Positions 30,916 through 63,146 of a stretch of DNA of 64,000 nt are shown here, in pieces (position 1 is the stretch's first letter; each line of letters opens with the position of its first letter). Source of the stretch: Hexactinellida sp. DTS-2022 (Eukaryota; Porifera; Hexactinellida); the NCBI GenBank assembly GCA_028753945.1, contig JAPNXP010000005.1, forward strand, positions 620,001 to 684,000, read 5' to 3'. The notes below the pieces were generated by a model, which saw nothing but the letters and a program-made list of their open reading frames with translations, was not told where the DNA came from and did no database searches. The translations under genes were made by a program, and so were the position numbers.

Positions 30916-33900
30916 TTATGTGTAAAGAGCTTCGTTGAAGTCTTTAAGGTTGTATCGACTCACGTCATAGAATGACGTCACAACTATTCGCCCTGCGAAC
31001 TTACGGCCTGAGAGAGACTGGCTGGCTTTGGTGGAATCAATAACAGAAGCAAACTCAACAAATATCTAAAAATAGAATTGGATACCTGTTCAAGAACATC
31101 CCGGTTATAATAAATACATTTTGGCAAACGGTTCGATTTATAAATATTGAAAAATAATTGGTAATAAAAGAAATTTTTCAATATTCTTACAACAAACTTT
31201 CTACAATAAAAAACACTAATTTCAATACAATCAGGTTCTTTTATTATGAACATTCAAGGGACCAAAAAATGTTTTCATAATAGAGAGACTCATAATGAGT
31301 GAACTCAACTTAATACAAACCCATTGTAAGTTGTTAAATTGGGACCATAGGAAAAAATTCATAATAAAAATATGTTCATATTAAGCAGACAAAAAACTGT
31401 TCACAATAAGCAGACCTGACTGTACATAGTAGTCGATACAGTTAAAACCTCTATTAAGTTATGCTTTTTAAGAAAGTATTTGAGAACTAAACTGAGTAAT
31501 ACAAACCTTTCCAACTCCCGGGACCTCTACATTTTCTATGGGTCTCGGTATCTCCAGGCTGAGCACCTTCCCACTCCTGCTGCATTCGTTCTTAACGTCC
31601 TCGTAGATATCTGTAAGCAAGCAATATGGAAGCTCATATGTATACAGTAGTAGGATCTAGTATATCTGAAACGAGCCCTTCGGTCTCGGTCGCTTTGCGA
31701 CGGATCGGTACTACGCACCTCAAGTTAACGGCCACTGTGCGGCCTTACTCCTCACCCTTTCTACTATGGAAAATGGCAGAAAGGGACGTTATATACATCC
31801 CTTTAGAAGATTTCCATAGTTTTAACTTGTTTTTCATATTATAAATTTTGAAATGCGAAATTCGTATTCAGCACACTTGTTTACCTATTATACCCGTTGA
31901 AAGCTAACTTCCAGGTTGATTTTGAATTTTAATTAATTTGTTTACCTATTTTGTGTAAACAACAACAACAAATATTCATATTATAAATTTATAAATTAAA
32001 AACATGTTTTAATTTAAACATGTTTTATTTTAAACATGTTTATATTTAAACATGTTTTATTTAAAACATGTTTAATTTAAAACATGTTTTATTTAAAACA
32101 TGTTTAAATTAAAACATGTTTAAAAAAAAACATGTTTAAATTAAAAAATGTTTAAATTAAAACATGTTTTAAATAAAACATGTTTTTTTTTAAACATGTT
32201 TTAATTTAAACATGTTTTTTTTTAAACATGTTTTATTTAAAACATGTTTTAATTTAAACATGTTTTAATTTAAACATGTTTTTTTTTAAACATGTTTTAT
32301 TTAAAACATGTTTTAATTTAAACATGTTTTTTTTTAAACATGTTTTATTTAAAACATGTTTTAATTTAAACATGTTTTTTTTAAAACATGTTTTAATTTA
32401 AACATGTTTTTTTTTAAACATGTTTTTTAATTTAAACATGTTTTTTTTTAAACATGTTTTAATTTAAACATGTTTTATTTAAAACATGTTTTTTTTAAAC
32501 ATGTTTTATTTAAAACATGTTTTAATTTAAACATGTTTTAATTTAAACATGTTTTTTTTTAAACATGTTTTATTTAAAACATGTTTTAATTTAAACATGT
32601 TTTTTTTAAAACATGTTTTAATTTAAACATGTTTTATTTAAAACATGTTTTAATTTAAACATGTTTAAACATGTTTTAATTTAAACATGTTTTTTTTAAA
32701 CATGTTTTATTTAAAACATGTTTTAATTTAAACATGTTTTTTTTAAACATGTTTTAATTTAAACATGTTTTATTTAAAACATGTTTTAATTTAAACATGT
32801 TTTAATTTAAACATGTTTTTTTTTAAACATGTTTTTTTTTAAACATGTTTTTTAATTTAAACATGTTTTTTTTTAAACATGTTTTAATTTAAACATGTTT
32901 TTTTTTAAACATGTTTTATTTAAAACATGTTTTAATTTAAACATGTTTTTTTTAAAACATGTTTTAATTTAAACATGTTTTTTTTTAAACATGTTTTATT
33001 TAAAACATGTTTTAATTTAAACATGTTTTATTTAAAACATGTTTTAATTTAAACATGTTTTTTTTTAAACATGTTTTAATTTAAACATGTTTTTTTTAAA
33101 CATGTTTTAATTTAAACATGTTTTTTTTTAAACATGTTTTATTTAAAACATGTTTTAATTTAAACATGTTTTATTTAAAACATGTTTTAATTTAAACATG
33201 TTTTTTTTTAAACATGTTTTAATTTAAACATGTTTTTTTTAAACATGTTTTAATTTAAACATGTTTTTTTTTAAACATGTTTTAATTTAAACATGTTTTA
33301 ATTTAAACATGTTTTAATTTAAACATGTTTTATTTAAAACATGTTTTATTTAAAACATGTTTTAATTTAAACATGTTTTAATTTAAACATGTTTTTTTTT
33401 AAACATGTTTTATTTAAAACATGTTTTAATTTAAACATGTTTTTTTTTAAACATGTTTAAATTTAAACATGTTTTAATTTAAACATGTTTTAATTTAAAC
33501 ATGTTTTATTTAAAACATGTTTTATTTAAAACATGTTTTAATTTAAACATGTTTTAATTTAAACATGTTTTAATTTAAACATGTTTTTTTTTAAACATGT
33601 TTTATTTAAAACATGTTTTAATTTAAACATGTTTTTTTTTAAACATGTTTTATTTAAAACATGTTTTAATTTAAACATGTTTTTTTTTAAACATGTTTTA
33701 ATTTAAACAAGTTTTTTTTCTCATATATATATCTGTAAGCAAGCAATGTGGCTATACTTAAGCTCATATGTAAATAGTAGGATCTAGTATATCTGTAAAT
33801 ATATATGTAGCTATTCTATAAGCTATACAGTAGTATGTATATCTGTAATGCAAGCAATACAGAACCTCGTTAATACGAACACCAACGGACGGTAAAATGT

Positions 33901-61500: not shown

Positions 61501-63146
61501 ACATGTCCATAACAGACATGTCCATAACAGACATGTATATAACAGACATGTCTATAAACGATGAGGGAAATATCTTTTAAGGCGAACAAAGTTAAATTTC
61601 CTAGCCTATACAAATGCATTCAAATAACTCGGTTAATACTAACATATTTCGACGGTCCCCTGGAGTTCCTATTAACAAGCCTACTATATTTCTATACCTA
61701 TTACTAACCTGAATTGGCATAAGATTATCTGCATTATACTTATCAACAGAACTCCCGTGAGCTAACAAGCACTGCACCATCATGCCATGTCCCCATTTAG
61801 CGGCGCTATGCAAAGGAATATTCTCCCTCAAATTAGCTTCATTCGGACTAGCTCCATTATCCAACAAGGCCCCAGCACTTTCTATATGCCCGTTGGTAGC
61901 ACAGTAGTGGAGGGGAGTACACCCGTTAACGTCCCTAGCATTAATCTCCGCCCCGTGGTCTATGAGCAGCTTGACTATCTCTCTGTGGTTGTACTGGGCA
62001 GAGAGGTGTAGGGGGGTGTGTCTGTGTGCGTAGGTGCGGGTGTTAACGTCTGCGCCCTTCTTTATGAATAGTTTGGAGAGGGGGTAGTTGCCATGGAGAC
62101 ACGCCACGTGTAGGAATGTTTGACCTAAATTATAAGAAATAATCCAACTACTTAAACAAGAAATATACGTACAGTTACTACAGTAGACTCTCGTTAATAC
62201 GAATAAGGAAATATCGGTTAAGGAATACAAGGTTTAATTCCCCTAGCCTATACAATGCATGCAGGTGACTCCGGATAATACGAATTTCCGGATACTGTAA
62301 TACGAACATATTTCGACTGTCTCCTACTAAGTTGACTAATTCATTGAATAATAGCCAAGAAAGAATAATTCAGGATTATTCCTAATTTGTTCAATTAGTG
62401 AATCTTAAGTAGAAACTTGTATAAATTAATACATACATTACGTATATTATATTTATGTTACAGACTATCTGTCATTATCTATCAAGAATCAGAAAGGGAA
62501 AAATAAATTATAACTGTACAAGTTCACCAACCTTTTGTATAATTCAATGAATTAGTCAACTAAGGTCCCCTGGTGTTCTTATAAAGAGACTACTGTAACA
62601 GAACTATAACTAACCTGATTTCGACTGTATTCTAATACAGTCGAAATCGGGTTTTTTTGCCCCCCAAAATGCACGACAAAAGGAGGCAAAAAAACCCAAT
62701 AAGCAAAAAAACCCGATCGAAAACACATTAAGATATCACATTTTTGCACGACAAAAGGAGGCAAAAAAACCCGTGGCAAAAAACCCCGATTTCGACTGTA
62801 CATTATAAGAGTATGTATACAACAAACCTGATTTGGATGCCATAGCTACATTAAGCTGCGCCTCGCTTATCTGCTCAACAGTGCATTTACGGCATTTGCA
62901 CAGCGGATGGCACACCCCGTTATCCACAGAAGTGGACGCTATAAGAACGCTGCACTCCTCTCCCCATCCCAACATGTCTCGTACTACCTGCTCCTTGCCA
63001 GTGGAAATAGCATCGAATACTAACGTCATTTCGTTCTCAATCAAATGGTTCTTCCGTAGCTGTAGAACTGTGCTGGTTCTATACGCGTTGTTGGAGCGCC
63101 GGAAAGCCATGGGACTACAGGTGAAGGTGGAGGAGCGCTTTAGTAG
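58528..63146 (-). CDS. Ankyrin-repeat protein (5' end uncertain)
   Basis: Four minus-strand exons: 63146-62828, 62124-61709, 59412-59242, 58668-58528, phases 1, 0, 0. The first visible exon may continue from an upstream exon beyond the window (its acceptor TTTACACAG is good), or start at an internal ATG, 63108 (MAFRRSNN). It carries a Cys/His cluster, CHPLCKCRKC, of unknown role. Exon 2 encodes four ankyrin repeats (QTFLHVACLHGNYPLSKLFI, HTPLHLSAQYNHREIVKLLI, CTPLHYCATNGHIE, NIPLHSAAKWGHG) and part of a fifth. The last two exons are Ser/Thr-rich and probably disordered. I do not recognise an orthologue; a protein-interaction role is all the repeats support. Its third intron holds a 2.1-kb satellite. 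Confidence 0.82.
59036..59213. repeat. (TTTG)n microsatellite in ankyrin gene intron
   Basis: About 40 near-perfect TTTG units followed by TTAG units, ending 29 bp from the donor of exon 59412-59242. Confidence 0.95.
59469..61555. repeat. AGACATGTCTATAAC satellite array (15-bp unit)
   Basis: About 139 head-to-tail 15-bp units, with a C/T alternation (GTCTAT or GTCCAT) and rare variants. Because the unit is a multiple of three and lacks stops in three frames, 690-740 codon frames are open on both strands (MSITD, MSVID, VCYRH repeats); these are not genes. It lies in an intron of the ankyrin gene. Confidence 0.97.
62635..62799. mobile_element. MITE family G variant
   Basis: CAGTCGAAATCGGGTTTTTT start and GATTTCGACTG end at TA. 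The interior has two direct GCACGACAAAAGGAGGCAAA blocks. Confidence 0.75.

Follow-up and report, generated by a model that had tools for sequence, protein, structure and literature searches.

Short-period satellite arrays sharing an ACATGT dyad in the genome of a hexactinellid sponge

Dyad-rich centromeric satellites have reportedly been described by Kasinathan and Henikoff, and to our knowledge different satellites of one genome usually share only repetition. Among the systems closest to the one described here, and according to the excerpts of the papers cited, the CENP-B box of alpha-satellite and dyad-rich centromeric satellites place a short motif or dyad within tandem repeats, the dyads being predicted to fold (PMC9070824); the meiotic pairing centres of Caenorhabditis elegans carry 12-base motifs bound by C2H2 zinc fingers, with different proteins for different chromosomes (PMC9071541); Cg_HINE, carried by Helentrons in the Pacific oyster, forms short satellite arrays scattered through the genome (PMC7492417); and the foldback transposon Tetris supplies the building blocks of a satellite in Drosophila virilis (PMC4079207). 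Here we analyse three tandem arrays centred on CATG in a 64,000-nucleotide stretch of the genome of Hexactinellida sp. DTS-2022 (contig JAPNXP010000005.1, positions 620,001 to 684,000), hereafter the window, together with similar arrays in the rest of the genome. An earlier note on this DNA had described them as unrelated satellites with the same palindromic centre, which could act either as sinks for a p53-family or other dyad-binding factor or as palindromes that expand by a replication mechanism. We tentatively propose that they belong to a set of dispersed satellites with a period of 15-16 bp and at least three spacer families, linked by a RACATGTY dyad which, judging from sequence, is a putative site for a dimeric protein.

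The three arrays and their common dyad

The genome examined comprises 112.4 Mb in 18 contigs (C1-C18), the window being C14:620001-684000; A1, A2 and A3 denote its three CATG arrays, and L-numbers denote stretches fetched from elsewhere in the genome. Both Tandem Repeats Finder (TRF) and the counts of CATG within the limits given in the earlier note (31995-33713, 34051-35418 and 59469-61555) place the arrays where that note had them, as head-to-tail tandem copies of one unit in the manner of satellites and minisatellites:

32000-33715, no strand: array A1, TRF period 16, 107.7 copies, AAACATGTTT plus an A/T spacer
34052-35417, no strand: array A2, TRF period 16, 85.4 copies, TAACATGTTA plus a YGTTTG spacer
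59464-61557, no strand: array A3, TRF period 15, 139.7 copies, AGACATGTCY plus an ATAAC spacer
27281-27537, no strand: 67-bp tandem repeat (TRF, 3.8 copies), one ACATGT per copy

Within the limits of the earlier note A1 has 106 CATG, every one of them inside AAACATGTTT, with a spacing of 16 bp in 96 of 105 intervals, and A2 has 86 CATG, 82 ACATGT and 70 TAACATGTTA, spaced by 16 bp in 85 of 85 intervals. A3 contains 137 ACATGT at 15-bp spacing in 134 of the 136 intervals; AGACATGTCT and AGACATGTCC occur 68 times each, so that the 10-bp palindrome is perfect in approximately half of the A3 units and the general form is the 8-bp GACATGTC. The whole window holds 339 ACATGT. Outside the arrays CATG falls below expectation (117 occurrences, ratio 0.59), and thus the arrays do not mirror the background. 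The 67-bp repeat, which the earlier note had counted among the carriers of the palindrome, has indeed one ACATGT in each copy (four in total, the first copy reading ACATGTT and the other three ACATGTC); we consider it a doubtful member, since its ACATGT could be due to chance given about ten others elsewhere in the window.

We compared 15 arrays, namely A1-A3 and 12 fetched from elsewhere (without the duplicates L002 and L004). Within these arrays the dyad is far less variable than the remaining bases of each unit, which is the behaviour of a recognition site. In the ACATGT core 11 of 4132 cells are non-consensus and 7 of 90 positions variable, compared with 432 of 6547 cells and 40 of 143 positions in the remainder of the unit. 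Letting the six-base block begin at any offset, independently for each of four families, yielded 57,600 combinations, of which 56 varied as little as the core. The wider form RACATGTY is fitted by 675 of the 678 ACATGT in these arrays. The spacers of A1, A2 and A3 give no alignment (shuffle p 0.73, 0.98 and 0.87), so the description of the satellites as unrelated holds to the extent that they are not alignable, but common ancestry is possible for spacers so short. The two G15 families (A3 and a CAGAAG variant) are related, their spacers aligning with a shuffle p of 0.0014.

Genome-wide, we searched for trains of three W-flanked palindromic tetramers with a period of 13-18 bp, using the reversed tetramer as control. 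The matches numbered 3472 for CATG (control GTAC 584), 335 for ACGT (control TGCA 102) and 16 for GATC (control CTAG 104). The enrichment of CATG palindromes, which the earlier note had named as a check of its idea, is thus found, with CATG ahead of five other palindromic tetramers. Among the ACGT matches listed, all on C1, ACATGT lies in the same match at 38 of 50 places. All CATG trains listed (100 of 6944, C1:0.45-1.11 Mb) have ACATGT with a period of 15 or 16, and the remaining ones may partly have flanks other than A...T. Trains of ACATGT with a period of 9-14 bp number 3 genome-wide (control TGTACA 23) and those of 17-22 bp number 197 (control 326), so that at shorter or longer periods ACATGT does not outnumber the control. 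The exact A3-type pattern was absent from collections of prokaryote and viral contigs and the A2-type from the viral contigs, and hence these searches are little informative.

Distribution of the arrays in the genome

Array starts were located with patterns of two dyads in which the periodicity had to be interrupted ahead of the first one, of period 15 (91 matches, complete) and period 16 (100 of 157 matches, ending in C10), and with TAACATGTTA (56 matches, complete); further places from other searches were added. After merging within 5 kb, 72 places were kept. All 52 places kept on C2-C18 fall in a band 0.33-1.5 Mb away from a contig end, where 22.1 were expected (standard deviation 3.6), although one of them (on C9) proved on fetching to consist of two dyads only. 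C1 has five places between 0.45 and 1.43 Mb and another 15 between 9.29 and 10.77 Mb. Restoring nine dropped places outside C1 as a check left 57 of 61 within the band, five of the nine being inside it and C6:214063, C7:1821765, C13:5596572 and C14:2457656 outside. The 29 better-supported places, picked by hand, are all in the band, on 16 contig ends. In a random sample of 19 10-kb stretches, of which 16 lie beyond the band, there was no CATG array of at least five copies.

Two other kinds of repeat serve for comparison. Of 14 places with 22-bp units among the matches listed on C1-C6, 7 lie in the band; this set omits pair partners as well as C1:10794720 and a train of 21-bp units at C1:9522234. 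Of the 9 places of the dispersed CACATGTG palindrome 4 lie in the band, with two more at 1.50 Mb. The contrast with the arrays is thus clear in the chromosome interior, yet other repeats lean outward too.

The dominant end of each contig holds 45 of the 52 places outside C1 (37.1 expected, p 0.00035 assuming independence, although neighbours may be mutual copies). Both ends are occupied on C2, C4, C5, C6, C7 and C18; among the matches listed, C11 and C16 have one place each and C9 only the two-dyad place. The matches listed therefore do not form one array region per chromosome, as a centromeric satellite would. No (TTAGGG)4 occurs in the 112.4-Mb assembly, the telomeres being unassembled or of another motif, and thus the contig ends are not established as telomeres. 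The cluster of 15 places at C1:9.29-10.77 Mb has a gap at 9.80-10.15 Mb. This internal cluster may mark a chromosome fusion (near 9.97 Mb) or a misjoin.

Gene context and array edges

In the window the three arrays are intronic, with splice sites read by eye, in agreement with the earlier placement in U2AF2 and an ankyrin gene. The introns and the sequences at the array edges are as follows:

31611-35436, minus strand: one U2AF2 intron of 3826 bp containing both A1 and A2; splice sites by eye
59413-61708, minus strand: ankyrin-gene intron, 2296 bp, flanking exons MPIQ and MTQSDEVITILEA, in frame by eye
31671-31996, no strand: transposon long-terminal-repeat fragment, 82-83% identical to the Ginger-like element of L020, the homology ending where A1 begins
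31604-31671, no strand: direct repeat copy 1, 80% identical to copy 2, including the 3' splice site of the intron
33726-33798, no strand: direct repeat copy 2, directly beyond A1
61560-61680, no strand: dispersed repeat resembling a miniature inverted-repeat transposable element (MITE), joined to the right end of A3

A1 and A2 together occupy 3082 of the 3826 bp (81%) of the first intron, in a gene which we take to be U2AF2 from the human sequence; the exon on one side reads EYE, in frame by eye. A3 fills 2094 of 2296 bp (91%) of the second, and Pfam recognises ankyrin repeats in its host gene. The gene content of the window is animal-like (U2AF2-, TAF9- and NHL-type genes). Long open frames of the NHL-repeat type are present at 13952-15187, 21075-22490 and 52327-53607, the second with a Pfam NHL match (6.1e-23) and the other two alike by eye.

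Four array edges abut sequence that is found elsewhere without an array: the left of A1 (the terminal repeat of the L020 element), the right of A3 (a dispersed repeat), the right of L001 (L017 and L008) and the left of L028 (L022). At the A1 edge, extending the query left the end of the homology unchanged, whereas the other three queries began at the array edge and the break was judged by eye. In all four array-free homologues ACATGT is absent from the 60 bases past the edge, and growth in place from a resident ACATGT is disfavoured at these edges. A1 and its transposon fragment are bracketed by a pair of direct repeats, each some 70 bp long and 80% identical to the other, and several other copies of the repeat beside A3 have extra shared bases (ctcgttaataggaacacg) at the place of A3. 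BLAST shows that MITE-like dispersed repeats with GTTAATACGAACAC or TTCGTATTAACCGG words, for example at 33870-34010 and 61560-61680, are common, with dozens of occurrences across the window. L017 carries two 26-bp tandem arrays at 4287-4676 and 6700-7090, inverted and about 2 kb apart in a foldback-like arrangement.

Explanations and known systems

The four inserted-looking edges are read by us as the insertion of ready-made arrays. In the proposed mechanism arrays would move as excised circles or through ectopic repair between chromosome-end zones into older sequence, and the landing sites would sometimes be transposon remnants. The dyad would be kept by a sequence-specific, probably homodimeric protein recognising RACATGTY, with the spacer drifting freely. 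The DNA helix makes one turn in 10.5 bp, and the approximately 1.5 helical turns between dyads would suit that protein. Binding to RACATGTY may benefit the host, or the arrays may exploit it.

Several observations weigh against this proposal. No empty site with both flanks was seen for any single array. Some other six-base block is less variable than the core in 4 of the 15 arrays and at least one ties with it in all 15, the copies within one array are not independent, and the relatedness of the G15 families means that independent origins may be few. The genome-wide train counts are of matches, in which arrays are not counted independently, and 6 of the 16 palindromic tetramers were compared. 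As for position, the limits of the 0.33-1.5 Mb band were set after the data had been seen; the selection discarded, partly by eye, the matches of the dispersed CACATGTG palindrome, the majority of places having just two dyads and some of those with a single match; and the other 57 of the 157 period-16 matches, which by their order lie on C10-C18, are outside the set. C3 has no array among the matches listed, the internal cluster of C1 departs from the contig-end zone, and the CACATGTG places also lean to contig ends.

The main alternative, which we regard as possible but less probable, dispenses with a binding protein: the palindromic word would pair with that of the next copy, an 8-10 bp palindrome and its short spacer being well suited to form a hairpin in single-stranded DNA, slippage or break repair would amplify units with an intact palindrome, and a single ACATGT founder would have given rise to all arrays while the spacer drifted as a loop. 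Single-stranded folding of one 141-base piece of each array gave z values of -8.9 for A1, -8.8 for A2 and -10.6 for A3, whereas two non-CATG arrays from the window scored -0.2 and -1.4. Most stems of A2 and A3 (approximately 9-12 bp, with loops of 4-5 bases) link successive dyads, and A1 forms longer hairpins. Palindrome, free spacer, period and conserved core are accounted for together in this way, to the detriment of our own proposal, and the relationship of the two G15 families is in line with one founder. However, the choice of CATG is explained only if there was one founder, to which the A1, A2 and A3 spacers lend no support; the position near contig ends is left unexplained, and the four edges have the appearance of insertions, not of local growth. 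The replication mechanism suggested earlier retains some support, in that single-stranded dyads fold back on each other, but folding alone leaves the choice of CATG unexplained. We favour the binding protein over hairpin-driven copying, and both can be true.

Considerably less probable is that the arrays belong to DNA transposons, as components or cargo, comparable to the tandem terminal repeats bound by transposases, and spread by transposition. In its favour, L024 (C2:319000-327100) is a KDZ-type transposon-like element of about 7.6 kb whose terminal inverted repeats consist of 22-bp units, each with ACATGT; it has a weak match to a KDZ transposase (4e-5, below the curated cut-off) and a match to a Ulp1 protease (3.9e-5). 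Seven inverted pairs a few kb apart, L024 being one of them, occur among the 100 matches listed for 17-22 bp ACATGT trains (C1-C6). A1 adjoins a piece of terminal repeat of the L020 element, presumably Ginger-like, which has an integrase-core match at 1.4e-5 (below cut-off) and a SCAND3-type zinc-finger match at 5.7e-7, and the L003 array begins within about 40 bases of a short match of the same type. These two arrays are a partial exception; constant element flanks, as expected of a satellite borne by a transposon, were not found. The comparison of 26 flanks of 15 arrays, all against all, gave six matches passing 1e-4, which are short and at varying distances from the arrays, and thus no common element lies at the edges. 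Moreover, 11 of the 17 flanks in a fetched set match nothing else in the sequence compared, the 22-bp trains do not outnumber their control, and no inverted pairs were noticed among the 15-16 bp arrays, without a systematic test.

Some related repeats deserve mention here. The transposon at L020:1825-8786 (C17) has 8.5 copies of a 142-bp unit (TRF) in its left terminal repeat and one or two in the right. Several of the 22-bp ACATGT trains elsewhere have, by eye, a common layout of GTAC and ACATGT, perhaps a transposase site. A dispersed palindromic element around AAGTACACAACACATGTGCCTTA, with two CACATGTG dyads in each copy, is similar to the 22-bp terminal units of L024 and was seen at the following places:

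C1:5145068, C1:7666143 and C1:10091453, no strand: AAGTACACAACACATGTGCCTTA element
C4:1003117, no strand: AAGTACACAACACATGTGCCTTA element
C7:1503795, no strand: AAGTACACAACACATGTGCCTTA element
C8:1580372, no strand: AAGTACACAACACATGTGCCTTA element
C11:14138839 and C11:14615201, no strand: AAGTACACAACACATGTGCCTTA element
C14:3898730, no strand: AAGTACACAACACATGTGCCTTA element

We attach little weight to the idea that the RACATGTY arrays mark chromosomes, with a dyad-binding protein coating, in most chromosomes, a single zone close to one of the ends (and the internal site of C1, perhaps an old fusion point) and acting in pairing, tethering or centromere choice, in which case selection would preserve dyad and spacing while the spacers turn over.

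A role as sinks or response elements of a p53-family protein, as suggested in the earlier note, is most improbable. Within the limits of that note RRRCWWGYYY matches 106 times in A1, 136 times in A3 and never in A2, with 20 matches in the remaining 58,561 bp of the window. The half-site fits most units in 10 of the 15 arrays, which speaks for such a role, but is absent from the other five, all of A2 type. Half-sites 5-6 bp apart suit the p53 tetramer poorly. The Pfam search of the genome gave no match to the p53 domain (PF00870), with prokaryote controls silent, although a p53 gene split over short exons could escape; the same kind of search found a CP2 (Grainyhead/LSF) domain in a single open frame (1.5e-50), with equally silent controls. 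Taking this weak negative together with the A2-type arrays, the p53 suggestion is not borne out, even though p53 seems to be present in the sponge genome according to the excerpt of a review (PMC5793068).

Programmed DNA elimination, which in nematodes uses palindromic signals near ends, is set aside because the genes whose introns house the arrays should be required in somatic cells.

A search of the literature found no report of these repeats. In the excerpts of the compared papers (PMC9070824, PMC9071541, PMC7492417, PMC4079207) there is no fixed palindrome common to satellites with non-alignable spacers at a fixed period. Centromeric satellites differ from the arrays described here, which measure 0.17-2.1 kb when seen whole, are intronic in the window and share one fixed word. 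The pairing centres of C. elegans were compared because of the dominant contig ends; here one palindrome occurs on most contigs, and some contigs have both ends occupied or none, in contrast to what the excerpt describes (PMC9071541). The oyster arrays are, in the excerpt, central repeats of mobile elements with defined flanks (PMC7492417), whereas ours share no edge element. With Tetris (PMC4079207, in excerpt) the KDZ-type element shares the supply of potential building blocks, having ACATGT in its terminal repeats, but nothing was found to show that the 15-16 bp arrays derive from the 22-bp repeats. As regards the p53 response element, the half-site form RRRCATGYYY fits A1, A3 and eight other arrays and does not fit the A2 family, the spacing is 5-6 bp, and no p53 domain was detected. 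The same palindrome at nearly the same period, with non-alignable spacers and in similar zones, thus offers a direct handle on what shapes short satellites, be it a binding protein, hairpin-driven copying or both. If such a protein came to light, it would be a satellite-box factor additional to those known to us.

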